Shown here in pieces: positions 22,186-63,893 of a stretch of 64,000 nt of DNA. The DNA comes from Ilex aquifolium (taxonomy: Eukaryota > Streptophyta > Magnoliopsida > Aquifoliales > Aquifoliaceae): contig OX637393.1 of NCBI GenBank assembly GCA_951799425.1, positions 21,989,744-22,053,743 of the forward strand, given 5' to 3'. A program made the translations under genes and the position numbers. Position 1 is the first letter of the stretch; every line of letters starts with the position of its first letter. The notes under the pieces were generated by a model. It was not told the origin of the DNA, did no database searches, and saw only the letters and a list, made by a program, of their open reading frames with translations.

Positions 22186-22632
22186 TCTATATAATAAAGT
22201 AGCTTACAATTCAAATCTCAAAAGATAAACAAAATGACTTTTAATATTCGCGGTTGAGATCGCTTTAAATTTTACTTTAAAATTAATCTAACGGTTAATA
22301 TTAACACTCTAAATTTAACAGGAAAAATAGGCTCTTAAGGGTGTGTTTGGAGTGATTTTTTAAAATTACTTCTACAAATTATTTCTCACAAATACTTTAA
22401 AAAAAAAAAAATAATGTTTGAAATCGTCCCACCACTATCTCTACCACCACCACCACCACCACCACCACCACTACCTCTACCACCACCACCGTCACCGCCA
22501 CCATCGTCGTCACCACCGCCATCGCCGCCGTCGCCAAAAATAATTGTGATTTGATTTTGGATATGAATATAAATATGTTTATTGTTTACCATTTTTTATT
22601 ATTTTGTGCCTTCAGGCACAGGTAATAACTAG
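22186..22632 (+). mobile_element. non-autonomous Helitron, copy 1
   Basis: 5' end TCTATATAATAAAGTAG after an A. The 3' end has the hairpin GTGCC-TTCA-GGCAC (22,606-22,619) ten bases before CTAG (22,629-22,632). No Rep/helicase coding. The interior holds a (CCA/CCG)n tract. Confidence 0.8.
22433..22535. repeat. (CCN)n tract in Helitron copy 1
   Basis: CCA/CCG/TCA triplets for about 100 bp. Open frames on both strands here are artefacts of the triplet repeat. Confidence 0.9.
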
Positions 22633-23549: not shown

Positions 23550-24112
23550 TATAAAATAAAGTAGCTTACAATTCAAATTTCAAAAGATAAACAAAATGAC
23601 TTTTGCTTTTCGCGGTTGAGATCGCTTTAAATTTTACTTTAAAGTTAATCTAACGGCTAATATTAACACCCTAAATTTAATAGGAAAAATAGGGTCCTAA
23701 GGGTGTCTTTGAAGTGATTTTTTAAAAGTACTTTTAGAAATTATTTCTCATAAATACTTTAAAAAAAAATAGTGTTTGAAACCGCCCCACCACTACCTCT
23801 ACCACTACCACCGCCCCCGCTACTGCCACCACCACCACTGCCGCCGTCGCCGCCACCACCACCATTGTCATCGCAGTCGCCGCCACCACCACCATCGCCA
23901 CTACCACCGCCCCCGCCCCCCGCCACCGCCACCGCCACCACCATTGTCATCGCCGCCGCCACCACCACCGCGGCCATCGCCACCACCACCATCGTCGTTG
24001 TCACCGCGGCCGCCGCCACCACCACCGTAGCCGCCGCCGCCACCACCTCTCACCCCCACTACAACTGATACTTAAATTCATTTCTCTCCTTTATGTTTGT
24101 GATTTGATTTTG
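23550..24112 (+). mobile_element. Helitron copy 3, 3'-truncated
   Basis: Begins at the CTAG of copy 2 with the same 5' region. It carries a (CCN)n tract (23,785-24,048) and the shared TTTGTGATTTGATTTTGG, then breaks off before any hairpin or CTAG. Confidence 0.7.
23785..24048. repeat. (CCN)n tract in Helitron copy 3
   Basis: Triplet tract of intermediate length, about 265 bp. The frames across it are repeat artefacts. Confidence 0.9.
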
Positions 24113-26099: not shown

Positions 26100-28508
26100 T
26101 GTGACGCCCCAATTTCCGGGGGTCCTTTATTAACCGTTGACCACCCGTCAACCCGCGGAAATACCCGTGGATGTCACTCAACCTAACACCGCGGTAGTAG
26201 TATCCCCTTAACCGGGATCTTAACTCACAATTGTTAACCGAATTCGATTATTCATTGGGTTCAACCAATATTCAATATACCATGATTTATACTCCATTAT
26301 AGTCCATTTATAACATTAGAAGGGAGGAAGGCATAGCCCAAGGGTTTGGCAAGAAAAAGAGAAAAAACTAAAATTTCAGAAAATTTGGAGGGCGTACCGG
26401 TACGCGTACCGGTACGCTATGCCCACTGGACCTCTGCGTACCGGTACGCTCTACCTTCTGGCCCTCTGCGTACCGGTACGCGTACCGGTACGATTCTGTC
26501 ACTTTTGCCTTTTTCCTTTGTTTTTCACTTCCAATCCATTCAACACACATCCTTTTCCATCCAACACATATTTAATGAAGTTTTTCCCATAAAACATGAT
26601 GCATATAAATTCTATTACAAACATTTATATGAATTTACATACCAAAACCAAGTTTTTATAATAATTTTACAAAAACTCAAAATAAAAGCCACATTCCGGC
26701 TTTCTTCAACCTTGGGGCTCGAAATGGGAGCCGTCCGTCGGTGTGAACCCAGCACCTGAAATATTTTTCCCACAAAGGGTGAGCCACGCTCAATAGGGTA
26801 TCTCCTAATGAGGCTACTCCCCAACCTATATGCATATGAAATGTTCACATGCCATAAAACATCAATTCATAACATCCCAAGCAAGGAAATCTATTCGATG
26901 ATGGAATTTGCAATGTCATGCTATGGAATGAGGTGAGACCCACTCATGCATATCAACCGAGCCCTTCCCGGCTCCTCTACACATGCAAGTGCCAATGTGT
27001 ACCAATCCGTCATTGATGTTGCACATCAAATGACCTTTCATTCTAGGGTCTTTCTTGGGGTGGATATTCATGGACTTCCACCAACGGTTCCGCGTACACC
27101 GACACATTTTATGGACTCTTATACCAACGGAGTGCGTATCCAATCACCGGGTCTCTCACCCGAGAGATAGTCTAGCCCTTCTTGCTACCCCAACCCTAAC
27201 AACCATGCAAACCGTGCGACTCGACTAGGTCATCGACCCGTCTTACCCGAGCCCACTCGTCATCCACCAAGCGTGGTGAAGACAACCACCATGCACACAC
27301 ACCCACTAAGTGCAATGCTCCCGTGCATATGAAATGTGATGTCTCATTTCAACAATATTATCATGTTCAATATGCTATGAGTAACACTTGAACATTCTAA
27401 TCATATTTCACATATTTCATGGCAAATTATATCATAAGCATATAATTCCCATCATTCCCTACAATGTCAATATATTACAAACATGTATATATATATCAAC
27501 ATTTTATCTTGGACAACACCCAAACATGTCATCACATAATCAAGTAATAACACACTTGAAGTCTCATGGCATAATATAAGCACATAGCATGCCCACAATT
27601 CACATGATCCAAGAATCACATTAGAACAATTTCATATACCCAATTCTAGAAATCTCTTGTAGAAACTTCTAACTACCGATCCAATTAGAATTGATCTTTA
27701 CCCAATTCCATATCCATTTTACCCAAATCAAACAAAAGGGGCAAGAGATACACAACCTATCATCCTACCCATTTCATTAAAACATTCTAGGTTTGGAATA
27801 AACCTTAGTAGGAGGAAACCCTACCTCTTGAAGCGTGAGGAACGACTGAGGGAAGTTCCAAGACCCGATTCAAGCAAAAACCCTCACTTCTCGAAAATTT
27901 CGTACCTTGATCTTCGGTAAAACTTGCGCTTTTTGGTATAGCCGCGTAGCCCTCGATGAGTAGAGCGACTTTAATTCTTGGCTTGCGTGAATTCGAGGTC
28001 CGTAGCACCGTAGATCGTAGAGAGAAGGTGAGTTTTCTCTCTTTTCTCCCTCTTTCTCTCTATCGGCTGAACAATCGGCTGAACAATGGGGAAAATCTAA
28101 TTTTTCCCCCTATTTATATTTTAGAATACTTGGCCCACAATTGGCCACATGTCCTACTTAATTTCGGGTCCGTTTTAATCCCGAAACGACTAAATTTCGC
28201 TCCGGTTCAAGTTCGAATTATTTTTATTTCAACTTGCCTCTACTATTTCCCAAAACTTTAAAATTTTATAAAAATTTCGTGAACGGGGTCACCCGAGGCC
28301 CGTTCGTCTCGTAAAACGCGAAAAATCCGACTATCTCGGAATTCAATGAAATTTGACAGAGTAACTAGTTTTCGCGAGACGAATCCAACGGTGAGGTCCG
28401 TTTCGTCATCCAAGTTCTAGAAAAATTCAGGTTTACAACCTGTACCGTAGTGGCAATTTACCGTTTTACCCTTTTTTCACAAAGGTTTAAATTTTCTCGG
28501 GTTTTACA
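26100..28508 (-). mobile_element. solo LTR, B family, minus orientation
   Basis: The plus-strand left end TGTGACGCCCC is the reverse of the B-element LTR 3' end, and the right end CGGGTTTTACA is the reverse of its 5' end. Internal blocks match the LTRs at 42,520 and 48,697 throughout (GTGAGCCACGCTCAATAGG, CTACCTCTTGAAGCG, the CTATTTATATTTTAG TATA region). No internal domain is attached, so it is a recombination product. Flanks share AAAT(T) at 26,096 and 28,509. It carries palindromes of the CGTACCGGTACG type, not the CCTTCCGGAAGG type of the 42-52 kb element. Confidence 0.8.
26392..26492 (-). promoter_or_regulatory. CGTACCGGTACG palindrome array in solo LTR
   Basis: Perfect palindromes at 26,392-26,417 (26 nt, two joined units), 26,436-26,449 (14 nt) and 26,469-26,492 (24 nt). 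The spacer after the first is ATGCCCACTGGACCTCT, containing GCCCACTGGA as in the other palindrome types. The array lies about 300-400 bp from the LTR 3' end, the same zone that holds CCTTCCGGAAGG copies in the related full element. Confidence 0.7.
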
Positions 28509-29220
28509 AAATTTCATGTCAAAATGTCTGAAACGTTTTTGTTTCTATAGAAATCGAAACAAATTATTGATTGAATATCAAAATTCCTATGTTTCGGTGT
28601 GTTTCGGTAGGTTTCAACCTATATTTCGTTTGTTTCGACCAATGTTTTGAAAATAAATTTTAAAATTTTTTCTTTGTCTTCAAAATATTACTGAAATGTT
28701 GATGTTTTCCAAACTCAATGAAACAAAATTTTGGTCCTTGCAATGGAAACATAACTGCTCCTAATCATAGGATACCTTGTTAATGCTCTCTTCTTTTCTT
28801 ACCACATGCAAAGGTATTGTACACATGCATATAGAAAAACAGAGACAAAATTAAGAAGAGCATAACTCACATAAACTTTCCAGGTCATGTTCTCAACCTT
28901 CACCTGCATATAACAAAAGCCAAAAACATAACTACAGAAGAACCAACAAAGAATTACAAATCAAGAGCAAGTAATAAAATAACAATACAATTGGAAAAGG
29001 GGAATAATGAATGCATGAGACCACATTCTCGGTGCCCGCACCAAACATCTATCTGAGAAGGGCCATGTTACTGGAAACATATCATGACATAGAGTCATTG
29101 ATCAATTCCATACCAAAAAGGTTAACGGCATTTGGATTTATGGGACTCAACCCATGCCCACCCAGATTCCTCTATGCAAATCCCTGGCGCCACACAACAC
29201 ACGGAGACACATATACATGC
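28509..29220. other. no gene seen
   Basis: Sequence between the solo LTR and the next element, with repeated GTTTC/GAAAC words (28,530-28,640). One 80-residue open frame at 29,011 shows no domain and runs into the LTR. Confidence 0.5.
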
Positions 29221-29225
29221 ATTCT

Positions 29226-31115
29226 TGATGAGAGCAAAATATTGCATATTTGATGGCCTCATTATATGCATTTTAACTCAATTTTTGCATTTAAGTACTT
29301 AGTGTTAGCCAAAGTTGTGAATAATGTTGATATTTTGATGTTGCATGTTTTGATAGCTTAAATGATGGATTTTAGGACTTTGCAACTATGTTGGATGTGA
29401 GGTGAAGTGGTGGACTCATGAAATGAGGATTGAGAGGCTTGGAAGGTAAAGAAATCAAGAAAAATGCATTTTGGATGAAGACCTTCCGGAAGGTTTATGA
29501 AGACCTTCCGGAAGGTTTAGCCCACTGGAATTTCGTAATTTTGACATTGTACCACTGTTTTTCTAAATTTTGACCATGATCTACTTCGAATTTGAAAAAG
29601 TGCAAAACATAAAAGTTGTAGATATGGATGTCCTTTTTATTGTGTCAAACTGTCAGCTCAATCCAACGGTTGGATCAAAATTTATTATTTTTCTACCAAA
29701 ACTGGTCCAGAGCTGTCACCAGATTCCAGTAGGTTAAACCTTCCGGAAGGTTGTCATCGTTCTTCCGGAAGGTCTTGCCCAGAATGCGAAAAACAGCCTG
29801 CAACTCAACTTTGCGGCTTGGGGGTCCCACCTAATCTTCTCCCACTTGCTCCCCAACATTATCTTACACAAGCACATGCTTCCCTTACACATTTGGAGGA
29901 CTTTGGAGGCTTTGCATTGAATAAGGCATGGGAGGGAAGTGGGCTACCATGGGGGTGTTGTCCTAGCTTGTCCAAGGCAATCAACTCAGCCCCTCTTTGG
30001 TGTAAGACCTGCACACACCTAGGGGGACCCTCCATGGACGAAATTCAAGGCTTTCACTCTCCATTATACATTCAACATTCAACACACAAGAAAAGGGGTT
30101 GGCTACCTAAGCTTAGGAGTAGATATAGAGAGAGAGTTCCAAGGTTGAAGATGATGAATAGTAATTTCGTTTTTGCATTTTCTTCATCCATGTCATTGCT
30201 GTAAGCTACATTCCTCTTGTAATCTTCATTTCTTACATTGTAATCCCCTTTATTTCAAGTATGTTGCAAGTTAATTACATGTTCTTCATTTCACCATTTA
30301 TGCTTTCAAGTTCTTCATTTTTAGTTTAAAATGGGTATTGAATGTTTTTGTTCATAGCTTTAGATTTCTTGTTGTAAGTTAATTTCCATGCTTCATGTCT
30401 TCATTATATGTCTTTACATTATGCTTGTCTTTCATTTTTATGTATGATTAGCTAGGATTTAAGTTGGTTAATCCAAGGGAAAATTCCTCTTGGGGATTCC
30501 ATTTCAACTCTTCTTCTTTCCTCCCTTTTGAGTCAAATGGTTCGGTTTGACGGGGTTGAGAGTGGATGAGTTGGTGAGCCTTTGATATTCCGTAGGCCTA
30601 GTCACGGTTTATGCTTAGATTACTCACCAATCTCGTCCCTAGCTTCTCCCGAATCAATCGTTCATTCATGCTCAATCGGAGGAAGGCTTTGAGTTGGCTT
30701 GACATTCCCATTGGAGTGAACCTTTGTGGTTAATCAACCCTTGCTTTATTTGCATTTTCATTCACAAACCAAACACAAAACTCAAATACAAGATTTTACA
30801 CTTTCTTTTCACTTTTGCAAAATCACTTTCACAAAACTCCCTTTCCTTCCCTGAGGAGACGACCTTGGAATATTTTCCAAGTAAAACACACGACCACAAA
30901 AGACTCCTTTCGATTGGGGAGCATTTTTGTGCACACCGCATCTCATTCCATCTATTTTGTTCATCACATTTCCATTCACATCCATTTTGTTGTTGTTTCC
31001 TATCTTCTTGCATCATCCGGAGGGAGAGTGACACTCCCCCATCACTATAAGCCACATACACACATTGAGGGTGAGGGTGATGTTACGAGGTTAGGAACGA
31101 CGTAATTACCAATCA
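29226..31115 (+). repeat. 5' LTR of the 29-34.7 kb element
   Basis: ACCTTCCGGAAGGT at 29,481-29,494 and 29,503-29,516, AACCTTCCGGAAGGTT at 29,737-29,752, and a shorter copy at 29,762-29,771. The second copy is followed by TTAGCCCACTGGAAT, the spacer also seen in the B-family array. A 128-residue frame at 29,818-30,204 is an LTR artefact: it is present in both LTRs with different lengths and has no domain. Confidence 0.85.
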
Positions 31116-32806
31116 GGTGCACCCTTTACATGTTCCGCCATTTTTTGTATAGAATAAGTTGGAAATGTGAAAATTTTTAAAAAAAAATTTGGAACATTTT
31201 TGTGAAAAATATTCAATATTGAACTATATTCCTCTATCTTAGTTGTTATGGGATTTGTGAATTGCTTGATCTTCATTTTGAACTTTGAATACATGAGCAC
31301 ATTATAGAAGTTTATCCTATTGCCAAGAGTATCACATATGTGTTTTCTTTCAAACTTAACCATAGTGCACCATGAACTTGTAATTTTGGTAATTTACGGA
31401 TTGAGTTCACATTTTAGTGCTTGACATGAATAGTGGAGATGAGTAAGAACCCATGTGAGCTTTAGTGCCAATTCTTGTTGGAGGGAACTTACATGTACTC
31501 AAGGAACAATTTTTCAAATTTCACATTTGTTCAATAATCTCATTATGCTTGTTTTGGTTAGGTGCATTTGTGTAGTTGATTGACTTTGTCTTGAAATGCA
31601 ATGTGCTCTCCCATGCCTATCTAGAAATGATCTTAGGCCATCTTTGATTTGCTTTGAGCCTTAGCCTTTTTCTTGTGAAAAATTTATCCCTAGTGCCATG
31701 GTTGAGCCTAATTGAATTCGTTTCTATGCCATACATTTGACCAAGCCAATGAAAATGATAAATATCTACCTTACCTTGGTTGTTCCTAGAGCTAAGTATG
31801 AGTAATCATAAAAGAGAAGGAAGTATGGTGTGGAAACTCAAACAAAAAGGATGAATGATGTTGGAACTCAAAGAGTTCAAACGGAAAAGAATGATAAAAT
31901 ACAAGAGAAGGAGAAAAATGGGTGAAAGAAGAAAAAAAGAAAAGAAAAGAAAAGAAACAAAGAATTGGTGATGGTGTGAGAATCAAAATCCCATGAAAAG
32001 AGAAGTGTTTGTCCAAGATTTAAAGTCTCTCACTCGGAACAACCCTCTTTGTTATCCTATACCCTTCATTTCACCTACCTAGATACCACCCCAAGGCCCC
32101 ATTATAACCCTTGAAAGTCCTAAATGATCTAGAGAAGCATGGGGAAGGCACACTTTTAAAGAAAAAGTAAAGTTAATTTTGCTATCTAATGCCCTAGCAT
32201 TCCTTTCATGAGATTATGCCAAGGTTGTTTCATTTGTATACATGTGCTTCATTTTTGGATTATATGTGAGCACTTTGTTTTGAGCATAAGATTCTATCTC
32301 ACATATACACATGGAGAGCATGCTAGGATAATCATGAGTGATTCATTGTTGAGAGAACACCCTTGGTGAGTTTTTGCATCGAAGCTTAATTTGGATAGCC
32401 ATGTGAATGTGAATTACGTTGAGTAAATGCTTAAATTACATGTTCATTCCACACACACACGAGTTTGAAAATGAATGTGTAGGTGAATACTCTAGAATAG
32501 CATTTAAAGATAATGTGTTTCATTTGTTTTTAGTTCGGGTGTTTTGAACAAAGCTATTTTTGAAATCCCATTGCTAGTTAAGATAGGGGAATATGCTTTA
32601 AATATTGGATATTAGCAAAAGAAGTTTGTAGGTACCTTCACTGGAAACCTTCACGAGACAAAACTCGTCCACTAGGGATCACCTAGGGGTTTAAAGGCTT
32701 ATTGCATATGCTAAATGCAATTTCGGAATTAGTATAGGTTTATTTTTTGTTTGCTTGCTTTTACATTTTGTTTGCTAGGGACTAGCAAAGCTTAAGTTGG
32801 GGGGTG
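31116..32806 (+). other. interior of the non-autonomous element
   Basis: No coding region. It shares TTTTAGGCCATCTTTGAT-type and CCTTCACGAGACAAAACTCG-type blocks with the Athila-like element and ends in AAGTTGGGGGGTG, a polypurine tract. Confidence 0.7.
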
Positions 32807-34692
32807 TGATGAGAGCAAAATATTGCATATTTGATGGCCTCATTATATGCATTTTAACTCAACTTTTGCATTTAAGTACTTAGTGTTAGCCAAAGTTGTG
32901 AATAATGTTGATATTTTGATGTTGCATGTTTTGATAGCTTAAATGATGGATTTTAGGACTTTGCAACTATGTTGGATGTGAGGTGAAGTGGTGGACTCAT
33001 GAAATGAGGATTGAGAGGCTTGGAAGGTAAAGAAATCAAGAAAAATGCATTTTGGATGAAGACCTTCCGGAAGGTTTATGAAGACCTTCCGGAAGGTTTA
33101 GCCCACTGGAATTTCGTAATTTTGACATTGTACCACTGTTTTTCTAAATTTTGACTATGATCTACTTCGAATTTGAAAAACTGCAAAACATAAAAGTTGT
33201 AGATATGGATGTCCTTTTTATTGTGTCAAAATGTCAGCTCAATCCAACGGTTGGATCAAAATTTATTATTTTTCTACCAAAACTGGTCCAGAGCTGTCAC
33301 CAGATTCCAGTAGGTTAAACCTTCCGGAAGGTTGTCATCGTTCTTCCGGAAGGTCTTGCCCAGAATGCGAAAAACAGTCTGCAACTCAACTTTGCGGCTT
33401 GGGGGTCCCACCTAATCTTCTCCCACTTGCTCCCCAACATTATCTTACACAAGCACATGCTTCCCTTACACATTTGGAGGACTTTGGAGGCTTTGCATTG
33501 AATAAGGCATGGGAGGGAAGTGGGCTACCATGGGGGTGTTGTCCTAGCTTGTCCAAGGCAATCAACTCAGCCCCTCTTTGGTGTAAGACCTGCACACACC
33601 TAGGGGGACCCTCCATGGACGAAATTCAAGGCTTTCACTCTCCATTATACATTCAACATTCAACACACAAGAAAAGGGGTTGGCTACCTAAGCTTAGGAG
33701 TAGATATAGAGAGAGAGTTCCAACGTTGAAGATGATGAATAGTAATTTCGTTTTTGCATTTTCTTCATCCATGTCATTGCTGTAAGCTACATTCCTCTTG
33801 TAATCTTCATTTCTTACATTGTAATCCCCTTTATTTCAAGTATGTTGCAAGTTAATTACATGTTCTTCATTTCACCATTTATGCTTTCAAGTTCTTCATT
33901 TTTAGCTTAAAATGGGTATTGAATGTTTTTGTTCATAGCTTTAGATTTCTTGCTTCAAGTTTAGTTTCATGCTTTAAAGCTTCATTTCTATACAATGTCT
34001 TTCATTTACATTATGCTTGTCTTTCCTTTATGCATTTTTAATATGAGTAGCTAGGATTTAAGTTGGTTAATCCAAGGGAAAATTCCTCTTGGGAATACCA
34101 TTTTCAACTCTTCTTCATTCCTCCCTTTTGAGTCGAATGGTTCGGTTTGACGGGGTTGAGAGTGGATGAGTTGGTGAGCCTTTGATATTCCGTAGGCCTA
34201 GTCACGGTTTATGCTTAGATACTCACCAATCTCGTCCCTAGCTTCCCCCGAATCAATTGTTCATTCATGCTCAATCGAAAGAAGGCTTTGAGTTGATTTG
34301 GTATTCCCATTGGAATGAACCCTTTGGATTAGCCAACACTTGCTTTATTTGCATTTTCATTTACAAACCACACACAAAACTCAAACAAAAGATTTTACAT
34401 TTTCTTTTCACTTTTGCAAAATCACTTTCACAAAACTCCCTTTCCTTCCCTGAGGAGACGACCTTGGAATACTCTTCCAAGTAAAACACCGACAACGAAA
34501 GACTCCTTGCGATTGGGGAGCACTTTTGTTCACACACACGCACTCATTTCACATCCATTTTGTTGTTGTTTCCTATCTTCTTGCATCATCCGGAGGGAGA
34601 GTGACACTCCCCCATCACTATAAGCCACATACACACATTGAGGGTGAGGGTGATGTTACGAGGTTAGGAACGACGTAATTATCAATCAATCA
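32807..34692 (+). repeat. 3' LTR of the 29-34.7 kb element
   Basis: The first ~1.15 kb is nearly identical to the 5' LTR, while 33,950-34,060 and the 3' third differ at many sites and by indels. Palindromes are at 33,062-33,075, 33,084-33,097 and 33,318-33,333. Confidence 0.85.
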
Positions 34693-34697
34693 ATTCT

Positions 34698-35534
34698 CCC
34701 ATCTTCTATACCTTTTAACAAATTTTTAGTGTTTAAGAGTGGGTAATTTGAGGTTCCAAAGAATTCTTTTGCAACACTCAAAGGTCATTTAAATTAGCCT
34801 ACAAATTTCACAAAATGAACACTCAATAATAATCAACTCAATATCCATTCCATCTTAACATTCAAAATAAACAAAAAAAACCCTATTTCATAATAAAAAA
34901 AATAAATTAAAATTTCGTAATAAACCTATTTCATAATTTCACAAACTCTATTCAACAACCAAATTAAAAACACAAACATTCAAAATCCCAAATTAATTTG
35001 ATGTTGTGTGTGTGTGTGCGCGTTGTGTGTGTGTGTGCATTATATGTGTGTTGTTTGTGAGTTTGACTGTGTGATGTGTGGTGGGATCGACTATGTGTGT
35101 GTGTGTGTCGTGTGAGATAGAGAGAGAGAGAAGGGTGTACCTGGGCGATGTGAGAGGAACCATGACAGAGAGAGGGAGGGTTGTGCTGCTGGTTTAGCTA
35201 TGGCAGACGAGAGAGAGAGAGAGAGAGAGAGAAGTCGCTGGTTACTGCTGGCATGTGTGTGTGTTATGGGGTGGCGTGTGTTGGGTTAAAATGGGCTGGA
35301 GAAAGTTTTGTGTTGGATGCATTGTGAACCTTTAGATTAAGTTGAAAGAATTGAGATGAAATTTTGTCCATTGAATTAAAAGTAGATTAAATCTGAGTCG
35401 TCCTTATACTTCCCAAATGAATTAAATTTGGATTAAATTTTAAAGTAAAAATAGATTCAAAATTAGTTCTATCTTATTAGTATAGATATAGAGAGAGATG
35501 AGATGAGATAGCGTGTTTAAAAGTCTAAGAGATA

Positions 35535-35566
<32 letters not shown>

Positions 35567-35735
35567 TTATATGAGAGATAAGAATGTTAGAGTTAAGTCC
35601 AATTATGATCGTCGGATCAGTATTTATGAGATGATCTGAACCGTCTTTTATGTTGGGATTACGTTGTTCGTTGGATGTGTTTATTTATTGTCTCAAAACG
35701 ATATGGACCTCTCTTTGTTTACAAAATTCAAACTC
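34698..35735. other. Helitron-like flank with microsatellites, no gene seen
   Basis: Contains (TG)n runs (35,004-35,060 and 35,094-35,107), (GA)n runs (35,118-35,231 and 35,530-35,566) and the AAATTAGCCTACAAAT repeat. No coding region is supported. Confidence 0.5.
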
Positions 35736-35756
35736 AGCTCTACTTTATTATATAGA

Positions 35757-36297
35757 TATATATATATTTATATATATATATCTCATACTCTCTCTCTCTT
35801 TTAGCATTGTTAGTCTTAACGATCCTAATTAAACTTTCATTCTATTGCTATATTTCTCTCTCTATCTCATACTCTATCTTTCTCTCTTAGCATTTTCATT
35901 GTTATTCTCGCAGTTACAAGCAGATTCGCTGAGCAATGTTAGTTCAGTTGGGTTTTTTTTTTTCTATTTTTTGAAAATTTGATTTGTTGTTCAATGTTGC
36001 TGATTCGTTTGATATTCTTTATTAAAACTAGATAGCCTATTCATTAGATTTAACCAGAGGTTGAAAAAATGAATACTTATTTAATGGAGAGAAGAGTCGC
36101 CATGAAGAAATGTATGACATGATAATTTCGTAATGGTGTTAGTTTAAGTTGATGGAAATTCTCGGATTGTGTTTATCTTATATGATTCTTCTTCATTTTA
36201 ACTCTTGAACTTATTTTATTTAAGACATTCTTGGATGTCCCATTTGCTTGGTGAGTTTTTTGTGTTAAGAGTGTCTTCAGGCACAGGTAATGACTAG
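35757..36297 (+). mobile_element. Helitron 3' portion
   Basis: Ends with hairpin GTGTCTTCAGGCAC (36,271-36,284) and CTAG (36,294-36,297). Its left end lies back to back with a minus-strand 5' terminus (35,756), forming an inverted pair. The exact 5' end is not clear. Confidence 0.5.
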
Positions 36298-36319
36298 TCT
36301 ATATAATAAAGTAGAGTTG

Positions 36320-37880
36320 AGTTTGAATTTTGGAGACAAAGAGAGGTCCAGATTGTTTTAAGACAAAACATAAACACATCCAGCGGACAACGTAACCCCA
36401 ACATAAAAGACGGTTCAGATCATCTCAAAAATTTTGATTTAACGGTCTGTAGTGAGTACTAAATTTTATTTTCCCGCCCAACTCAGGTCTCTCTCTCACG
36501 CGTCTCTCTCTCTCACGCAGCCCCACGTCAGACATCCCCAAATTAAATTTTTCAACCCAATGCAAACCTTAAATTAAGCTATCTCTCACTCTCCAACTCT
36601 GCTTCCCCCTCCCTCCCTCACTAGTGATGACATCTTCCCCAACCCAATCTAATCCAGCAATTAAGTAATCTCTCACTCTCCAACTCTGCCTCTCTCTCCC
36701 TAACTCACGAGTAATTAAATCTTTCAACGCCCATCCGTTATCCAATGGGCAGAATTCCAAATCCCATGTTTCACGCCAAATCCTTCTCCACAACCGTATA
36801 TACACAAACCTCCAAACTTTGTTTCCCCCCTCTCTCTGCCTCTCCAAACTTTGTTTCTCCTCTCTGATGTCCCTCTCTTCTAGAGACTACAGACGGCAAC
36901 GTGCCAGCGACCACCGCCCAGTGCTTTCTCTCTCTTCCTTCTATGCCTTCCATCCCTCTTCCTGCATCTTTTGTGTGTATGGAACATGGAGAGGCATTAA
37001 GCGAACAAGTTCACCAGAAAAATTTAGGCTTAATGCCTCGAATGATTGAGCAACAAATTTTTCTCTTAAATTTCTCTCTACCACTCTGTTAGTTCACTGA
37101 AAAAAATTTATCTCTCACACTCTGTTCACGATTTATTATATAGATTCTAGCCAGAATAATCGTGAACAGATTATTATATAGAACATGTTCCGGGGCTTGA
37201 ACATAATAAGCCAAAACTGCATCTCTCTCCCACTTTCTTATCCAAAAAGCTTGATTTCACTTGAATAACTGTGTATTTGGGTTTGAATCCAATAACATAT
37301 TATGAAACATTGTATGTACGCATGTTATGCATAATGTATTTGTGTTTCAAAATTGGAAAAATTGAATGATTAAGTGCTACGAATTTGGCTTGTGCATCCT
37401 GAAAATATCCTTGTTGGATTTGGAATTGATTGCATTTTGCTTGGTTGTCCTTTTATCAGTTGGTAGCTTGAACAAAATTCTGGCTGCGGAGCAAGCTACA
37501 CTGCATCAGTTGGATTTCGTTGTTGATTTCGACTACGCTTTTTGTTGCTGTCTTCTTGCGACACATTATCTCACTGCTCAGGTACATATATCTCTCCCTT
37601 CCCTCTCCCTCTCCCTCTATCTCTGTTCTTTCTCTTTGTGTTGCAGCCCATCCACCGACAGCGGCGTAGGAACCAATCGCCACTGCCACCACGCCACCAG
37701 CACTGCCTTGTCTTTGTGGTTTTCATTTACACTGAATCCATTATACTATTTTTGTTGCTAGGTGAATGGGTGTGCTAATTTTTCTAATTGTAGAAGTTGA
37801 AATATTTATGGACTTAATCAGATGCCTCCCTATCACTCTGCTCCACTCCATCCTCTTCTACACCAGAGCCAAACAATTGC
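36320..37880. other. Helitron interior, CT-rich, no gene supported
   Basis: CT-rich leader-like sequence (36,480-36,960), a 10-bp inverted repeat GTTCACGATT / AATCGTGAAC (37,124-37,133 and 37,158-37,167) around a TTATTATATAGA Helitron-like terminus, and a 131-residue frame (37,366-37,761) without a recognisable domain. Parts may be captured gene pieces, but I cannot identify a source. Confidence 0.4.
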
Positions 37881-37887
37881 CACCAAT

Positions 37888-39674
37888 TGATTAGTAGTTA
37901 AAATTAGCATATTACTATGCCCTTTTAAGACTAATTATACTTTGATGGAGTTTAAATGATGACATTTCAGGGCATAAATTGTACAAGGGACCAAAGGCGA
38001 TGGATATCAGACTTTCATGCAACACCATCATATTCTGGAAAAAAATTGAAAAAGCTTGGACCAAGGCAAGAACGTTCGAACGCCAATCAATGTTCGAACG
38101 TCCCTTGGAATCATGTGAAGACCAGACTGATGAGACATGACGTGTTGCAGCCAAGAACTGAGGTACTTGAGTACCACGTTCGAACGCCAACTCACATTCG
38201 AACGTCCCCTGGAATTAATTAAAGATCATGATGCTGCATGGAGTGTGGAAGTGAACTTCACAGAAGACCACAAGCCACTTGAGTGGGAAGGTCAGACCCC
38301 ATATGACGTTCGAACGCCCATCAAGTAAAGACAGAAACAACGTTCGAACGTCAGACAACGTTCGAATGTTGTCTGCAGACTGGCTGCAGAGTAGTTAGCT
38401 TTCACTTGGACTTGGGCGACCATGCACTATTCCTTCACCCCCTCTTGTCTCCTTCTCTTGGCCTATAAATACTCTCATTGTTGGAGAGTAAAGGAGGACT
38501 TGGAGAGTTGTTTTGGAGATTAGTTTGGCATTAGACCATCATCTCTTAGTTTGTATAGAATTAGTCTTAGGCTTATGGTTTTAATTCCATGTCTAGAAGA
38601 AGGATGGATCATCTTTTGGTTGTGGATCACCCTCCAAAAGTGACTACCTTTCTTCTACTTTTAATATGTGTTTCATTCACTTCCATTGCTTGAGCTTCTT
38701 TCTTCCCATAGAGGAGTGAAACTCTTCCACTTTTCTAGAGCTTCGCCAAAGCCGTGAAGGGTGGAATGTGATTCACTCATTCTTTGTTGAAGATTGGCTC
38801 CTTGATTATTGTGCCTTACCTTGTAACTTCTTTACTCGGAGGAATGAGCATCACTCACTTTTTTAGCTTTACCAAAGCCATGAAGAGTGAGTAGTTTCTC
38901 ATTCACTCTTTAGTGAGAGGTGATGGATGTGTATAAATTATCCGAAAGTTATATTTGTGCATTTTCGATTATGCTTAATGCTTTATATTTCCCTTGTTTA
39001 TTGAATGATTGATTGCATCTAGCAAAGCTAAGGTACTTTGTATAACCATAAGTTCTTTCTATAACACAGATAACTCTTACATAGAAAGACTCATTGGTTC
39101 AAAGCAAGTACCCCGGATAGATCTTCATGACTACCCTTCAATCTTCACCATTATTGTGCTTCAATTAAAGAATGGAAATGGAGCATTAATGTCATGATTG
39201 AATGTCTTGTAGAAACACTTGCTTGTTTGTAGACGGGTTGAGTCTCGGTACATGCAATTCTTGTAAACTTCTAGAAAGACATCGGAATCATGTTCTTAAT
39301 TCTCACAATCCACCTTTATCTTCTAATTAACCTGTTGTAGACACGGGGGTTAATTGAGTTATCAAGCACAAGTATAATAAACCGGATAATTAACTACATG
39401 TCAAAATCCTTGAACTAAAGAGTGACTCTTTTACATTAGAGCTTATCTCATATTTTGTTTAGAAAATTCTCTTGGAAAAAATTTTATATTCTATCCAGGA
39501 TATCCCATACATCACACAACTTCAAATCTCAAGGGTTACAATCACTAGGTCTCCACCACTGCTTATCTCAAAACACCAACAAGAGTTCCCTGTGGATTCG
39601 ACTCCGGACTCAAACCGGATTATTACTACAGTTTGACCGCCTGCACTTGGGTGTACACATTTCAGATCAAATCA
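37888..39674 (+). mobile_element. solo LTR, CGTTCGAACG family
   Basis: Full-length relative of the LTR at 7,556-9,493, starting TGATTAG and ending ATCAAATCA, with no interior attached. Flanking CCAAT (37,883-37,887) and CCAAC (39,675-39,679) fit a 5-bp duplication with one mismatch. TATAAATA at 38,464-38,471. Formed presumably by LTR-LTR recombination. Confidence 0.82.
38073..38471 (+). promoter_or_regulatory. CGTTCGAACG cluster and TATA in solo LTR
   Basis: Palindromes at 38,073-38,082, 38,177-38,186, 38,307-38,316 and 38,341-38,350, with partial copies at 38,092, 38,195 and 38,359. TATAAATA follows at 38,464-38,471. Same order as in the LTR at 7,556. Confidence 0.6.
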
Positions 39675-39679
39675 CCAAC

Positions 39680-41042
39680 CACCATAAGCCCCACTGTAAT
39701 CCACCACTGTGAGCCACCCACCAGTGTAAGCCAACCACAATAAGACACCACTGTAAGCCGTAAGTGACCAATTTATTGTGCCGTCATTAAATCATGCATT
39801 TTTGGTCATTGAATTGCTGAGCGAACCAGTGCCACCAACCACCATAAGTAACTACCCCATAGCCCCAAACTACTTAACGGTCGATTATTGCTCGAGTAAT
39901 TGGTTGATTTAGTCGTGGAATTGGTGAGTGATGAGTTTTGGGTGTTTGTATATGTGTGTGGAGAAAATGGGAGATAGCCTCCCCTTTTTCAATCCTCTCC
40001 TTTCTTTTGTTTTCTTTCTTACAGGATAATCACACACTTGGTTGATTTCTCAACCAATTTACAAGACACACAATGGTGGTTTGGACAAGTGTTAATTTGT
40101 CTTTCTTTAAGTTAATTTTTTTACCAAGCTTTAATGTTTTCCTTATCTCATTGATGGCTGGCCACCATTGCAAAAGCTTCCATGATCATTTTTTTTTCTT
40201 CATTATATCTATTTCCTATACATACACAAACCAACGGGCATTTGATCCAATTGTACTCCTTACCTTATGAAGGCTTTGCCCTCTTGAGGTTAAGGGTTCA
40301 AGTTCCCCCTCCCCCTCCCCCCAAAAAAAATAGAATAAAAAAAAAATACATACACAATAGCAAATGCCTCTTTTTCGTCTCTAACTGTTCATAATATAGG
40401 CAGACTTCTATTTTGTTCTATTTCTATACAAAAAATTTGGGTGCTGTCTTCATCGTGGTTCGACGACAAGGTGATCACTTCTAGGGATTTTTATATCAAT
40501 TTTGGTTTTACATCTGTGGGATGATCTGATGATCCTTTTGGATCGAATGGTTTTGATGTGTAAATTATTTATTTTCAAATCACTTCCTTTAGAAATTTTA
40601 TGAGAACTGCTATTAATTTCAATTTTTCCTTTGTTTTTTTTGGTTCGTTGTTTGTTTGAGTTCTATTTTTTACTTAATGACTTTTTGTGTTATAGAGTGC
40701 CTTCAGGCATGGGTCCATGCTGCCTTTGTAAAAATGTAAGGCAACACCCGCTCCTTCAAGCATGGGACCTTCTATTGTTCATGTGATTCTAACTTCTATT
40801 GCATCTTTATACCATCTCTTGATATTTGGAAATCATTTTCTTCTTTTTTTAATTATCTTTTCTTTCGGAATTGGACCTATATTTACTGTATACATTGAAG
40901 TTTTTTGTTACAATAACAGTTTGCTGCATGTAGTGTTTCAGAGAAACTTGGATTGCTTTACATTGCATCTTAGAATTCCTCTTAGATTTGTATTTTATTT
41001 TTTCGGTTGGGGTTGTTACGTAAATCTTCTAAAGATAATTGC

Positions 41043-41106
<64 letters not shown>

Positions 41107-42514
41107 AGGTTGGGATTTGCTTGATTTAATTCATACTGTAGTAGCAATAGGTGATTTTGTCAATCTAACACCATATCTCCAATTTCAATGGGTTAGCACA
41201 GTAATGTTACTGTTCATGACCATATAGAGGAAAATATGGACATTAATTAATACGTATATTAGTGTATTTATGTATGGACCAATCTTTTGGTTTAAGTATT
41301 TGAATGCTATCGTGGATGTTATATTTCAAGCATATTATTCATTCAATTGGTCGGTGAGCTTTGATTTTTATATTTTTGCTTTAACATTTGGTGAGCTTTG
41401 CTTTATTTTATCTCTTATTATACTTTCCTTGGATGCTTAAAGGGATGATAAAATGAGTGCGAATGTGGTTCTTGAACGCTGAAACATGTGAATATAATGT
41501 GTGGAAGAAAAGAGAAAAAGAAGGCTATGTATGAGAAAGTTGAATTTTCAATTTTTTAGAAATACATTTAAAACGAATTTGTTGATTGATAGTCTTAACT
41601 TTTTCAATGAAATCTCAAATGTTTTTATTGGGAATTTTTTTTGTGCTATGTAGTGCCTTCAGGCACAACATTTTAATATGAGTCCTTACGCTTCAATTTT
41701 TAATATGAAAGCATGAGATCCTGCTTTGGAACTATTATTTAAGATACTCAAGACGTGTGTAGCCGACATGCTCATAATAGTACATATTGTTTTTATAAAT
41801 GATTCATTCATTTGTTGGATGCACTTGCCTAATATTTTCTCTATTAGTTCCATGGCCAAATGTTGATTAACTAGAAGTGATGAAGACCAAAATGTGCCTA
41901 AACATGGCATGGAGGCCTCGAATTCAGGTTCAACGGTGAGTAATTCTCAAGTTGATTGTTTTTTCTTTATTTCATTTTTTTCCTTTCTTTTCATTTTCTG
42001 AGTTAGTTCCTTTGTTTTTTTTCTTCAATTTACTGCTGCATATTTAATTTCTTCGAGCCATTTTTTTATTTGGTATGGGTTTACCAAGTCACTTGCTATG
42101 ACTATGCCATGGATTTCGAATATAAGATGTTTTTTGCTGCCATGGTTAGTTGATTGGGTGTTGATAAAATTACTAGCCCTTTAGGATATGGTATTAAAAT
42201 ATACGTATTGTGTATACAAGCTGAAATTTTTATGGGATCCTATTTATGGTAAAATATATAGTGGGCAGTATTATGAATACTGAAATGAAACTGGGTTTTG
42301 AATTTGGTAGTTGAGATAGTCATGTTTTCAAAATGATAAAAAGGAAAGTGGGGTTCTAAATTTAGTGTTGCTTCAGTTTTGATTGTAATTATGTATTTTT
42401 ACCACTTCTAAATTGAATTTCTTGGTTATGGACCTATTTTTAAGCAAGATCTCATTTTTGTACGTATTGTTTGAAATTTTCTTGACCATTCTTTCCTTTG
42501 AGTTTTTTTGGGTT
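39680..42514. other. Helitron-derived spacer, no gene seen
   Basis: AT-rich DNA with decayed Helitron hairpins (TGCCTTCAGGCA at 40,698 and GTGCCTTCAGGCAC at 41,653) and a GA microsatellite. Open frames of 65-94 residues lack domains. Confidence 0.5.
41045..41102. repeat. (AG)29 microsatellite
   Basis: About 58 bp of uninterrupted AG dinucleotides. Confidence 0.97.
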
Positions 42515-42519
42515 CATTG

Positions 42520-45500
42520 TGTGAAACCCCGGAAAATTTAAACTTTGACGAACAAGGGCAATAAGTGAATTGCCACTTCAGTACTAGTTGAAAAACTGAA
42601 TTTTTCTAAATCTCGGATGACGAAACGGATTCCACCGTTGGATTCGTCTCGCGAAATCTAGTTACCACGTCAAATTTCGTTGAATTTCGAGATAGTCGGA
42701 TTTTTCACGTTTTACGAGACAAACGGGCCTCGGGTGACCCCGTGCACGAAATTTTTATAAAATTTTAAAGTTTGGGGAAATATTAGAGGCAAGTTGAAGT
42801 AAAAATAATTCGAACTTGAACCGGAGCGAAATTTAGTCGTTTCGGGATTAAAACGGACCCGAAATTAAATAGGACATGTGGCCAATTGTGGGCCAAGTAT
42901 CCTAAAAATATAAATAGGGGCCTAAAGTCTGAAAAATCAGACTTCTCCTTCACCATTCAGCCGGTTTCAGCCGAGAGAAAAGAAGAGAGGGAAAATGAGA
43001 GAAAACTCCACCTTCTCTCTACGATCTACTCCGTTCTAGCGCTCAAATCGATTCGGGCCAAGAACAAGAGTTGCTCTACGCGTCGAGGGCTACGCGTGGG
43101 TACCAAAAACGACGGTTTTCACCGAACGTTGGAGGGCCGAAAATTTGGAAGTGAAGGATTCAAGCTTGCTTTGAGTTCTAGGAGCTTCCCACGGCGATTC
43201 TACACGCTACAAGAGGTAGGGTTTTCTTCCTACTTAGGTTTATTTCCAACCTAGGAAGGTTATATGGAATGGGTAGGTGTATATATATATGTATCACTTG
43301 CCTATTGTGGTTATTTGGGTGAAATGGGTATTGAGAATGGGTAGCAAGATTTAAATCACATTCTCTAGTTTAATGTACCACTAATGCATTTCATGTGTGG
43401 GAAATGAGTACCAAATATGCTAAGCAAGGTTGGTATGAAATGGGTAAATAAATTTACTTGATGGGTAAATTTCATAAAGAAACTTGAAGTGTAGAAAATT
43501 GATATGGGAAATTGGGTAAAGTGAATTCCTAAATGAAATGGACAATTAGGAATGGTTGTTGATAATTTCCTGAGAAATTATGACATATGAGGTTATGTTA
43601 TGGGTAGAATGAATTCTATCTTGGTATAATTGTGTAGAAATCAATTAATATGATTTCTTGAGCTTTATGATGAATTTGAGTATATTATATGATTACATGC
43701 TTTGGGTGGTTCGAAGGTGTTGATTAAATGCCTTGGTGAAAATGTTGTATTGATGAGTTTGCTATGTTAATTGCATGCTTATGTGATAACATGTTTGAAA
43801 ATGGTTATTGGATGAAATGTTGATATATGCATGCTTGCTATATATTGACAATGTGTTAAATTATGGTGTTCATATGCTTATGATATGAAGTACCATGGAT
43901 ATGTGGATTTATTGTTGTGTTGTTCATATGGCATTCATACATATTGAACATGTGGAGAAGATGCAAGGGTACATTACATTGCATTCTCATGGGTACATCA
44001 CATTCATGGTTATAAGACATGAGTGTGTGTGGGTGAGTTGACATCGCATTCATGGGTCATAGGCATGAGTGTGGGTGTGTGCATGTGTTGTGGATCAAAC
44101 ACCAAATCTTGGTGGTTGGTATGTGAACTCGGGAAAGTCGGGATCGAAGATCCGACTGAGTTGCACGGTTGCATTGCATAAGGAAAACTTGTGTCGGGTA
44201 AAGCAAGTAGGGCTAGACACTCCCTCGGGTGAAAAACCCGGAACCACTTGGTTTAGTCATTTGACCGGCGGTGAAATTCCAGAAAAGTGGCATGGCCCAC
44301 GGAGCCAGTGGTGCGACTCCAAAATCCGTTGCCCAAGAAGACACAAGACTTTGTTATATAAAAACACCCATCCAATGGGTAGCCTCAAACAATGATTTGA
44401 TTTTTTTTAAAGACATAACTTTTATCTCAAACGATCATTGGGAGGGTTTTTCCGTCAATAGACGGGTTCATACACATTGGCTTTTGCATTGTGTGGTGTG
44501 AGTCGGGGAAGACTCGGGACAAGGTGCATGAGTGAGTTCCATCTCATATCATGGCATGACATGGTATAGCATGGTAGCTTTCTAACATTGAGGTGTATAT
44601 TCTTGTTAGATTGGTTGATGCTTGTTGATTTGTTGCATGTGCGCATTTCATATGCACTTAGGTTGGGGAGTAGCCTCTGTAGGAGGATATCCTATTGAGC
44701 GTGGCTCACCCTTCGTGGGACAACATTTCAGGTGCGGGGTTCACGCCGGCGGACGGCTCCCAATTCGAGCCCCAAAGTTGAAGAAAGCCGACTTGTGGCT
44801 TTTATGGTTATTTAGTAAAGTTTTGTAAGAATTCCATTTTGAGATGTAAATATATGGAATGAATTGTGATAGAGCTTGTATGAGTTGTGTATTATATGGA
44901 AAATCTCATTAAACATGTGTTGGATGAGTTTGGAGTGTATGGGGTAGCTTTAAGGATGGTTTGGAGGGGAAAGAAATCCATTATTTTTGCTCACAGTCTG
45001 AAAACCTACCGGAAGGTGTATGTCGGCCTTCCGGAAGGTTTTGCTAAAAACCCTGGATGCCTTGTTCACGGCTAATACCTTCCGGAAGGTTTTGCCCACT
45101 GGAATAAACCTTCCGGAGGATTTTAGCTACTGGAGTAAAACCTACCGGAAGGACTTGTCTACTGGAATGAACCTTCCGGAAGGTTTTGCCTTGGGTTTCT
45201 TTTTGACTGCCAAATTCTTCCGGAAGGTTTTGTTTTCTGGAATGAACCTTCCGGAAGGTTTTGGCTACTGGAATGGACCTTCCGGAAGGTTTTTGCTACT
45301 GATGTAGACCTTCCGGAAGTTCTTGAAATTGATCCTTTTCATTTAACTGTTCTTTCAGCGACCTTCCGGTAGGTGTATGTCGACCTTCCGGAAGGTTTTT
45401 CCAAAAACTTGAAATTTTCAAAATGCTTAGCCATGCTCTTGGGCTTTATTTTCTTTGGTTCCTATGACATAAATGGACATAAATTGAGATATCATTGACC

Positions 45501-45631
45501 TTGTGGATGGTAAATCCGGTTAAAAGCATGTGAATGACGTGGTGTCGGGTTATACGACTATCACGAGTATTTTCGCGGGTTGACGGATGGTCAACGGTTA
45601 ATAAAGGACCCCCGGGTTTTGGGGTGTCACA
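42520..45631 (+). repeat. 5' LTR of young gypsy element
   Basis: TATAAATA at 42,909-42,916, leader with CT-rich stretch, AG|GTAGGG donor-like motif at 43,214-43,220, and a palindrome array at 45,004-45,396. Open frames inside (such as 42,886-43,254) recur identically in the 3' LTR and have no domain. Confidence 0.92.
45004..45396 (+). promoter_or_regulatory. ACCTTCCGGAAGGT palindrome array (5' LTR)
   Basis: About twelve copies in 390 bp. Perfect 14-mers start at 45,077, 45,171, 45,246, 45,277 and 45,383; a perfect 12-mer lies at 45,027-45,038; imperfect copies lie near 45,004, 45,107, 45,140, 45,216, 45,308 and 45,361. Several are spaced 31 bp apart with a spacer of TTTTGCCCACTGGAAT / TAGCTACTGGAGT type. 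The array translates as repeated NLPEGF-like words, but arms and spacing, not frame, are conserved. Confidence 0.85.
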
Positions 45632-45634
45632 GCT

Positions 45635-45646
45635 TGGTATCAGAGC
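45635..45646 (+). other. primer-binding site, initiator tRNA-Met type
   Basis: TGGTATCAGAGC three bases after the 5' LTR end. This is the classical site complementary to the 3' end of plant initiator tRNA-Met, used to prime minus-strand cDNA synthesis. Confidence 0.95.
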
Positions 45647-46094
45647 TTAGGTTATAGATCTTATGTGGTCTTGTGGGAAATGAGTCTATCATCTTCCATT
45701 GCAAGAATGAAAGAGGTTTAGAGCTTAGGTTTACGATTCACCTAAGACTTGATGGGCATGGGTTTTAGACCATTTCATTCCATGTGCATCTCACGTTATG
45801 TGCTATATTTGCTACATGTTATGTACCCTACTTGGTACATGTTATGTGTTACTTGTTGTGTGACTTGTATGCATGATGAATGTGCATAGTGAAAAGTATG
45901 CTAACCCTAGTGTTTAGAGAACTTAACCTTGGGAGTGGGAAAACAAATGAACGGGAAAGTTCAAAGTGTAAGGGTCCACTATTGGAGGCATACGCCCTAC
46001 TAGTGAGACAGTGAGAAAGATTTGAACGTTTTAACTTTGGTCCCTATCTAGGGATACTAAGCCGTTGTACCATTGCTATTTGACATGTGTGTAG

Positions 46095-46865
46095 ATGTCA
46101 TATAGAGGAAGGGGACGTCTAGGCGGTGGACGGAACAACCAACCACTACCGGCTTTGGACCAACAAGCCTATATGGAGGCTATGAGTACGATGGCTGCTA
46201 ACCTAGCACAGGCAAGCGCCAATTTGAGCCAAGGGGCTCAAGCCATCCAAAGGAGTTTAAGTTCCATGGGCCATCAACGGCCATGGAAAAAGCAAAAGAC
46301 ATCGAGGCCACAAGAATCATCGGGGCAGGGCCGCGGCTATCAAGGCCAAGGCCAAGGGCAAACCTCCCAAAGTAGTGGGCACTTCAGGGTTCCCAGCCAA
46401 GCGGGGCAGGGGCCATGTTATCATTGTCGCCAAGTGGGGCATAAGAGGAGGGATTGTCCTCAGAGGCAGGGATCACAGGAGGGGGATCAAGCCCAAAATC
46501 TTTTGTCCCAAGGAGGGAAGAAATTCAAGGGAACGTTTCAAGGAGGCCAGAAGACATGTTTCTATTGTCGACAACCGGGCCATAGGAAGAAGGATTGCCC
46601 CCTGAGGCAAACCTCACAGAGTTCCGAGACTTCTCAATCCCAGTCGTCGGTGGGACTCACACAGGCACGTATTGTCCTTCCCTATTCCACTAAGGACCAG
46701 GGAAATCAGTCCCAACTACAGAGCGTTGTGCAAGTCCTTAGTACGCCGCGTGCGGAGACTCCGCAATCAGACCGGATGAGCCAAGGTATGGGCCAAGGCC
46801 AGGAACAAGACTCTGAAGCGACAACATTGGAGACCCAGGAGACGGTCTTTGACGTTGCACCATAG
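46095..46865 (+). CDS. gag remnant lacking capsid, two zinc knuckles
   Basis: A 256-residue open frame. Residues 1-58 resemble the N-terminus of Tekay/Del-type gag (MSYRGRGRLGGGRN). The usual capsid domain is missing, and the chain passes straight into a Gln/Gly/Ser-rich linker and nucleocapsid. Two CCHC knuckles are present: CYHCRQVGHKRRDC (about residues 108-121) and CFYCRQPGHRKKDC (about 155-168). Knuckles bind the element RNA; without capsid no particle is expected. A long Gln-rich tail (QSSETSQSQSSVG, GMGQGQEQDSE) follows. The ATG lies right after a splice-acceptor-like TGTGTGTAG. The frame is open and its start context good, so it could be translated, but function is doubtful. A second knuckle is uncommon in this lineage, to my knowledge. 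Confidence 0.75.
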   Translation: MSYRGRGRLGGGRNNQPLPALDQQAYMEAMSTMAANLAQASANLSQGAQAIQRSLSSMGHQRPWKKQKTSRPQESSGQGRGYQGQGQGQTSQSSGHFRVPSQAGQGPCYHCRQVGHKRRDCPQRQGSQEGDQAQNLLSQGGKKFKGTFQGGQKTCFYCRQPGHRKKDCPLRQTSQSSETSQSQSSVGLTQARIVLPYSTKDQGNQSQLQSVVQVLSTPRAETPQSDRMSQGMGQGQEQDSEATTLETQETVFDVAP

Positions 46866-46899
46866 AGTGAGTCGGGGGATCAGGCAGCGACCCACGGTA

Positions 46900-48640: not shown

Positions 48641-48683
48641 CGAATGTGCATGAGGGTGTGAATTTCGGGGACGAAATTCTTTT

Positions 48684-48696
48684 AAGGGGGGAAGAA
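48684..48696 (+). other. polypurine tract
   Basis: AAGGGGGGAAGAA directly before the 3' LTR; primes plus-strand synthesis. Confidence 0.85.
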
Positions 48697-63890: not shown

Positions 63891-63893
63891 TTT

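Follow-up and report, generated by a model that had tools for sequence, protein, structure and literature searches.

Arrays of palindromic words in the long terminal repeats (LTRs) of plant retrotransposons have been described for the Sireviruses, which are Ty1/copia elements. That description reports element-specific palindromic repeated motifs in 13 Sireviruses, located within the LTR, ahead of its TATA box, and, where an env gene is present, upstream of env as well; the motifs are defined by at least 8 copies per element with high identity, have a CGG-CCG core signature in all elements but Tnd-1, are nearly identical in some unrelated elements, and are called Sirevirus specific and absent from classic retrotransposons (PMC2829016). 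The Ty3/RLG elements of maize are reported to be generally without an obvious peak of such structures (PMC10760457). Here, we describe compact palindrome arrays in a 64,000-nucleotide stretch of the Ilex aquifolium genome (contig OX637393.1, positions 21,989,744 to 22,053,743), hereafter the window, in which the palindromes are found in six LTRs or LTR pairs. By analogy, these arrays appear to behave like the Sirevirus repeated motifs without being members of that class, because the element type and the core signature differ. They add three features to the known kind: hosts of Ty3/gypsy type, word swaps between related LTRs, and a bipartite site made of a palindrome and an adjoining motif, S.

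Three palindromic words, P1 (CCTTCCGGAAGG), P2 (CGTACCGGTACG) and P3 (ACGTTCGAACGT), make up the arrays; P3 was absent from the list of an earlier inspection of the same letters (the original prediction). All 64 of the 12-mers within two mismatches of a word in the whole window lie inside arrays, compared with about 2.8 such 12-mers per sequence in five Markov sequences, and each of the 24 matches outside the arrays has 3 mismatches. Perfect palindromes of at least 12 bp number 82, against a mean of 19 and a maximum of 29 in 20 first-order Markov sequences (A/T runs counted). With array boundaries drawn by eye around the palindromes, there are 51 units, three of them with 3 mismatches, in eight independent arrays; 16 further units in the second LTR copies of elements A and B, introduced below, are excluded from the unit counts. 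A single word occupies each of the eight arrays, without mixing. P2 (11 units) forms a1 (739 to 794, minus strand; 3 units, two of them without the central CpG), a4 (26392 to 26492, minus strand; 5 units, all perfect) and a8 (62526 to 62582, plus strand; 3 units). P1 (16 units) forms a5 (29482 to 29772, plus strand; 4 units, identical in the 3' LTR at 33063 to 33353) and a7 (45005 to 45395, plus strand; 12 units, 6 perfect and 3 with P1/P2 hybrid cores, the same units recurring in the 3' LTR at 51182 to 51572). P3 (24 units) forms a2 (4132 to 4397; 8 units), a3 (7740 to 8103; 9 units) and a6 (38072 to 38369; 7 units), all on the plus strand. The cores are CCGG or TTCGAA, the three consensus words are perfectly palindromic, and P1 and P2 differ in two base pairs, both compensated. 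Rfam gave no match at gathering thresholds in the window, a scan of viral contigs for doubled P2 and doubled P1 patterns found none, and one translated frame of the element B array, used as a protein query, yielded no candidate. The CpG observed/expected ratio is higher in the array than in the other parts of the LTR for a3 (7735 to 8115; 1.32 versus 0.37), a5 (29470 to 29790; 0.73 versus 0.35) and a4 (26380 to 26505; 1.43 versus 0.94), and the order is reversed for a7 (44990 to 45410; 0.73 versus 0.85). In a1, positions 739 to 762 form a perfect 24-bp palindrome, CGTACCAGTACGCGTACTGGTACG, composed of two adjoining P2 units that have lost their central CpG on opposite strands.

Judged from the letters, the hosts, that of a1 excepted, would be of Ty3/gypsy type, with partly provisional lineage names: an integrase open reading frame (ORF) at 1094 to 2812 and element B are placed by domains or primer-binding site (PBS), and the remaining LTRs by LTR similarity or PBS only. 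We take element B and a solo LTR at 26100 to 28508 (minus strand; 4-bp flanking repeat ATTT) to be putatively Tekay-type, a name suggested by the LTR ends and primer site. Element B is recent, with LTRs at 42520 to 45631 and 48697 to 51808 (plus strand) that show 4 differences over 3112 bp (99.87% identical), an iMet-type PBS at 45635 and the flanking repeat CATTG. An LTR at 62285 to 63891 (plus strand) is followed at 63894 by the PBS TGGCGCCGTTGC, presumably that of Athila; the rest of this Athila-like element lies outside the window. Element A (plus strand; 5' LTR 29226 to 31115; 3' LTR from 32807 to about 34692; ATTCT as flanking repeat, identified by eye) has the TGAT start and part of the 3' half in common with the 62285 LTR.

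Within these pairs of relatives, different words are found, as the original prediction had stated: P2 in the 26100 LTR and P1 in element B, P1 in element A and P2 in the 62285 LTR, so that P1 and P2 each recur in Tekay-type and Athila-type LTRs. The claimed end-to-end homology of the 26100 LTR and the LTRs of element B stands for both ends, which are related, but not for the middle, which aligns poorly, the array zones (about 26216 to 26557 versus 44927 to 45515) not being reliably alignable. The shared 3' half of the element A and 62285 LTRs extends over about 0.65 kb at 73 to 75% identity, and their 5' halves with the arrays align badly; the array-zone alignments of both pairs are unreliable and were left out of all counts. 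Words probably change through replacement of whole arrays, and unit spacing gives this some support: 22-bp pairs occur in both P1 arrays, which lie in different LTR types and have near-identical stretches of palindrome plus S, and pairs of 12 to 13 bp occur in all three P2 arrays. A step of 31 to 32 bp is common to P1 and P2, and a7 additionally has steps of 44, 51 and 53.

Motif S (GCYACTGGA) adjoins both P1 and P2 at a fixed offset. ACTGG directly adjoining P1 or P2 units begins at offset 20 from the unit start in nine of nine cases, in arrays of both words, and near matches occupy the same offset (TTCTGG twice, TACTGA once), giving 12 composites of palindrome and S among the 27 P1/P2 units: one in a1, two in a4 (one CCACTGG and one TTCTGG variant), two in a5, whose layout is P-22-P-S followed by an inverted S-P-22-P, six in a7 (four ACTGG, two variants) and one in a8. 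Five other ACTGG matches in P1/P2 flanks are accounted for by the CpG-lost P2 unit of a1 (two) and by the same S counted from a farther unit (three); beside P3, ACTGG falls at offsets 21 (two) and 39 (two). Over 11 nt, the mean identity of S is 0.76 between composites that differ in both word and lineage (18 pairs) and 0.74 for the same word, both across lineages (17 pairs) and within a lineage (17 pairs), but only 0.58 for different words within the Tekay- or Athila-type (14 pairs); the 42 P1/P2 flanks without S have an identity of 0.29 over 16 nt. Because the composites were selected for having S, its conservation is partly given by construction, whereas the fixed offset is not. The arrays, 2048 bp in total, contain YACTGG 12 times, against 25 occurrences in 61,210 bp elsewhere (both strands, second LTR copies excluded; Fisher 1e-9), with the limits that matches of one array are not independent and that two of them are P2 units of a1 and one lies inside the P3 array a2.

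The spacers to which the original prediction drew attention are this motif: GCCCACTGGA at 26421, 29520 and 45094, with second LTR copies at 33101 and 51271; GCTACTGGAG at 768, 45126 and 51303; and GCTACTGGTG at 62556. That the core is swapped and the spacer kept is borne out, since S has the same offset beside P1 and P2. The spacer is kept across LTRs as a shared motif and not in a fixed relation to the LTR. S follows the palindrome in one direction in 12 of 12 composites, and the composite itself lies in either direction: element B and the 62285 LTR have S in sense, the 26100 LTR and the a1 promoter have it inverted, and element A has one S in each orientation. In the two Tekay-type LTRs, the shared spacer has one orientation in the window though they lie on opposite strands, so that the 26100 copy has it reversed with respect to its LTR. 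Occurrence in either orientation is consistent with enhancer sites acting at the DNA level, which allow it. S could be a decayed palindrome unit, in keeping with the CpG loss of the a1 units at 739 and 751, but its constant offset and common 3' portion favor a separate motif.

For five of the eight arrays, TATAAA[TA] lies downstream, read in one orientation, at a distance of no more than 100 bp: a1 (minus-strand TATAAAT at 687, 52 bp off), a2 (12 bp before the TATA box at 4410), a3 (8197), a4 (minus strand, 26312 and 26291) and a6 (38464). The same spans placed at random gave a mean of 0.70, and at least five in 0.02% of 5000 trials (P=0.0002), the pattern and the distance having been picked after viewing the sequence. 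Two of the five are not LTR arrays as assigned: a1 lies outside any assigned element, and a2 is internal. P3 occurs both in the LTR (a3) and before an internal ORF (a2) of apparently one element, and self-blastn of the a2 stretch against the LTR found no match of at least 90 bp. Array a3 lies in the U3 region of an Athila-like LTR that begins at about 7556, after a purine tract, and a6 lies in a relative of that LTR (about 37888 to 39674; 71 to 84% identical). Seven of the nine a3 sites align to a site in the a6 LTR, with 89.3% identity (84 columns) versus 75.8% in 488 other U3 columns, and 4 of 571 circular shifts of the site mask reached the identity of the P3 sites; the remaining two a3 units face a gap. 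The P3 sites thus change more slowly than the surrounding U3 and hardly more slowly than the remaining LTR. The two LTRs of element A differ at 70 positions, and the 48 columns occupied by units contain none of these, with about 2 expected, which is little informative.

The claim that both arms had changed together while symmetry stayed perfect does not hold. Measured against the array word, the 51 units have 35 pair positions changed in one arm, 2 changed in both arms and still paired, and 2 changed in both arms and unpaired; excluding the outermost P3 pair, which hardly belongs to the palindrome, leaves 23 one-arm changes versus 1 paired change. Likewise, by inspection, 9 of 9 differences between the seven homologous P3 sites of the a3 and a6 LTRs affect one arm. 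Arms diverging independently, which the original prediction had itself named as evidence to the contrary, are therefore found both within arrays and between homologous sites. In the a7 array of element B, 6 of the 12 units are imperfect, with one-armed variants. These imperfect units were already present in the transposed RNA, because all 4 differences between the LTRs of this element fall outside the array. Symmetry is a property of the array word and is not strictly maintained site by site. As a separate observation, a7 contains a P1 pair in two direct copies (45005 to 45038 and 45362 to 45395) with an identical linker, TGTATGTCG; they share a one-base variant, which sits in the opposite arm in each (CCTACCGGAAGG versus CCTTCCGGTAGG), as though the palindrome had been flipped.

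Compared with the Sirevirus repeated motifs, the layout is similar in that some arrays lie close to a TATA box and one precedes an internal ORF, and the Tnd-1 word, ACAATCGATTGT, has a TCGA core like P3 (PMC2829016). Beside the at least 8 copies per Sirevirus element, a7 has 12 units, a3 9 and a2 8, and the other arrays have 3 to 7 units, most elements being incomplete. The position upstream of env may find a counterpart in a2, which precedes an ORF matching PF20167 between the integrase ORF and the 3' LTR of what we infer to be one element. The cores here are CCGG or TTCGAA instead of the CGG-CCG signature, and in place of a Ty1/copia host we find Ty3/gypsy-type features: rve and H2C2 domains, matches named Ty3-I, and the iMet-type PBS, CCHC and H2C2 of element B. 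The fixed-offset motif S and the differing words in related LTRs are further differences. Tnt1 is also a Ty1/copia element, and VANDALs are DNA transposons. The maize Sirevirus LTRs, likewise in Ty1/copia hosts, share with our LTRs a palindrome-rich, fast-evolving cis-regulatory region with strong folding, as reported in citing papers (PMC5311732, PMC10760457). The BII boxes of Tnt1 are promoter boxes that bind defense-induced factors in differentially regulated subfamilies, and the text available for them contains no swapped palindromic words (PMC3316501). In the VANC/VANDAL anti-silencing system, short motifs in tandem arrays also differ between related elements and are read by an element-encoded protein, the term "palindrom" being absent from the main text (PMC5735166). 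The statement that no such system was known is not supported, as both the Sirevirus palindrome arrays (PMC2829016) and a diversification of motifs matched to the factor in VANC/VANDAL (PMC5735166) were already on record. Palindrome arrays in Ty3/gypsy elements, word swaps or a palindrome-plus-S site were not described in the matches listed by our literature searches. A full-text search for six word strings returned only papers on other subjects, judged by titles and abstract starts, and among the matches listed for Athila or gypsy LTR palindromes, only the Sirevirus paper (PMC2829016) has both "palindrom" and "repeated motif" in the text accessible.

We consider it somewhat more probable than its contrary that the arrays serve LTR retrotransposon promoters as cis-regulatory modules, with the palindromes as putative sites for dimeric factors, S as a second site for a shared partner, and word turnover by array exchange. 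Each palindrome would most likely be bound by a symmetric protein dimer, and S would offer an asymmetric second site, in a fixed phase of palindrome, 7-nt linker and YACTGGA, to a partner that P1 and P2 elements share. Which factor drives a given element, presumably by activation, may depend on the word. Arrays could grow, contract and pass between elements through slippage or template switching in reverse transcription, such that a new word would supplant the old one throughout the array with no pair-by-pair repair of arms. Most likely, then, the words act as exchangeable on-switches. Finding both words, P1 and P2, in Tekay-type as well as Athila-type LTRs agrees with a pair of host factors that serve unrelated elements. 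No factor binding P1, P2 or P3 appeared among the literature matches listed; LOB-domain, heat-shock and SPL factors would be conceivable readers, but we make no claim for them. If this interpretation is correct, plant Ty3/gypsy-type retrotransposons have exchangeable, word-coded promoter modules like those of Sireviruses, and relatives within a single genome have switched words. It would become testable whether elements rewire to new host factors by whole-array swaps and which factors read the words, and the bipartite layout offers concrete probes for finding these proteins.

Several observations weigh against such a promoter role. Arrays a5, a7 and a8 have no TATAAA[TA] within 150 bp. The Tekay-type LTRs share a TATA-like box 2.1 kb (element B, 42908) and 1.6 kb (26100 LTR, 28119) upstream of the array, and the relation of the Tekay-type arrays, a4 included, to the promoter is hence uncertain; the array may lie downstream of the start. 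The LTR beyond the TATA box is 86.9% identical between the a3 and a6 LTRs over 1195 columns, and the P3 sites are hardly better conserved. The three arrays folded as RNA gave predicted structures far stronger than shuffles (a7, z -11.6; a4, z -6.8; a3, z -5.8), and the sample is one window with eight arrays. The similar conservation of P3 sites and of the LTR beyond the TATA box, together with the 1.6 to 2.1 kb between the Tekay-type TATA-like box and the array, makes the promoter role slightly less probable, though still somewhat above even, and gives two rivals a little more weight. Symmetric consensus words are what a dimer site under selection for symmetry would have; the excess of paired over one-arm changes expected of such a site is not seen. 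For the interpretation in the original prediction speak the different words of related LTRs, the spacer motif shared across word and lineage, and the conservation of P3 sites above that of U3; the arms that do not change in pairs speak against it.

The strong folding would also suit a role at the RNA level, in which hairpins in the terminal U3/R/U5 transcript serve as small-RNA templates for silencing or in genomic RNA dimerization and packaging; in maize Sireviruses, LTR regions rich in palindromes are reported to be hotspots of small RNAs (PMC10760457, PMC5311732). Yet every palindrome folds well, so that z-scores do not discriminate, S in both orientations relative to the element is hardly compatible with an RNA role for S, and P3 stands additionally before an internal TATA box. 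We regard this role as rather unlikely. It is likewise improbable that the arrays are functionless repeats spread by slippage or template switching, their symmetry arising from quasi-palindrome correction, in which one arm templates the other, and their transfer between LTR families from recombination. Such repeats would be expected to expand and contract, as the gap opposite two of the nine a3 units suggests, and the 22-bp pairs and near-identical palindrome-plus-S stretches common to P1 arrays of two LTR types, as well as the modest conservation of P3 sites relative to the LTR beyond the TATA box, agree with this account. Correction, however, should erase one-armed variants, which exceed paired changes 23 to 1, and element B, the youngest, has 6 of 12 units uncorrected; moreover, the slower change of P3 sites than of neighboring U3, the proximity to TATA boxes and the sharing of one word between LTR and internal region are left unexplained.

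A more speculative and improbable variant holds that P1 and P2 are two symmetrized forms of one asymmetric ancestral site, TACCGGAA, with the left arm copied giving TACCGGTA (P2) and the right arm copied giving TTCCGGAA (P1). The ancestral site would persist as the hybrid cores of the element B array and as deaminated S, and elements would switch homodimeric factors, or halves of a heterodimer, through the half-site that is duplicated. The hybrid cores are TACCGGAA at 45005 and 45141 and TTCCGGTA at 45362, and three of three variants at position 4 change to the P2 letter. S as a CpG-deaminated hybrid site would read TACTGGAA; a match at 7/8 is seen to the hybrid in 3 of the 12 S flanks and to P1 in one, a level of match to P1, P2 or hybrid cores found in 0.3% of random 16-mers outside the arrays (20,000 draws), and 8 of the 12 flanks match the hybrid best, the other 4 not. 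Quite unlikely, in our judgment, is the idea of the original prediction that an element-encoded DNA-binding protein co-diversifies with its motif, as in VANC/VANDAL. Single words per array, differing words in related elements and tandem noncoding arrays are as in the VANC targets (PMC5735166). The same two words in two LTR types are, however, unlike private pairs of element and factor and fit host factors at least as well. Moreover, no candidate gene was seen in the only two interiors inspected: that of element A has no ORF longer than 95 aa in the ORF listing, and that of element B gave 12 listed ORFs, of which 3 were scanned with Pfam and 2 matched (zinc knuckle, H2C2).

The interior of element B (45632 to 48696), 3.1 kb in length, appears internally deleted, with pol remnants, despite near-identical LTRs; it has zinc-knuckle (CCHC) and H2C2 matches, and an RNase H-like stretch read by eye. 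Its deleted interior and 99.87% LTR identity suggest that element B was probably mobilized in trans. Near the start of the window, the integrase ORF (1094 to 2812, plus strand; rve and H2C2) has protein matches named Ty3-I; among the 120 matches listed of 6965, most of them unnamed, flowering plants account for the named organisms (Xanthoceras, Melia, Vitis, Malus and others), with the exception of one entry labeled Modestobacter. It probably shares one Athila-like element with a2 and a3, as their order and orientation suggest. The ORF downstream of a2 (4624 to 5610, plus strand) is broken by in-frame stops, and a piece of it, 5125 to 5607, matches PF20167 (Putative plant transposon protein); this ORF would be the env-like gene. 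Elsewhere in the window, positions 22188 to 24059 form a long stretch of degenerate tandem repeats with steps of 9, 15, 18 and 21 bp and overlapping low-complexity frames.

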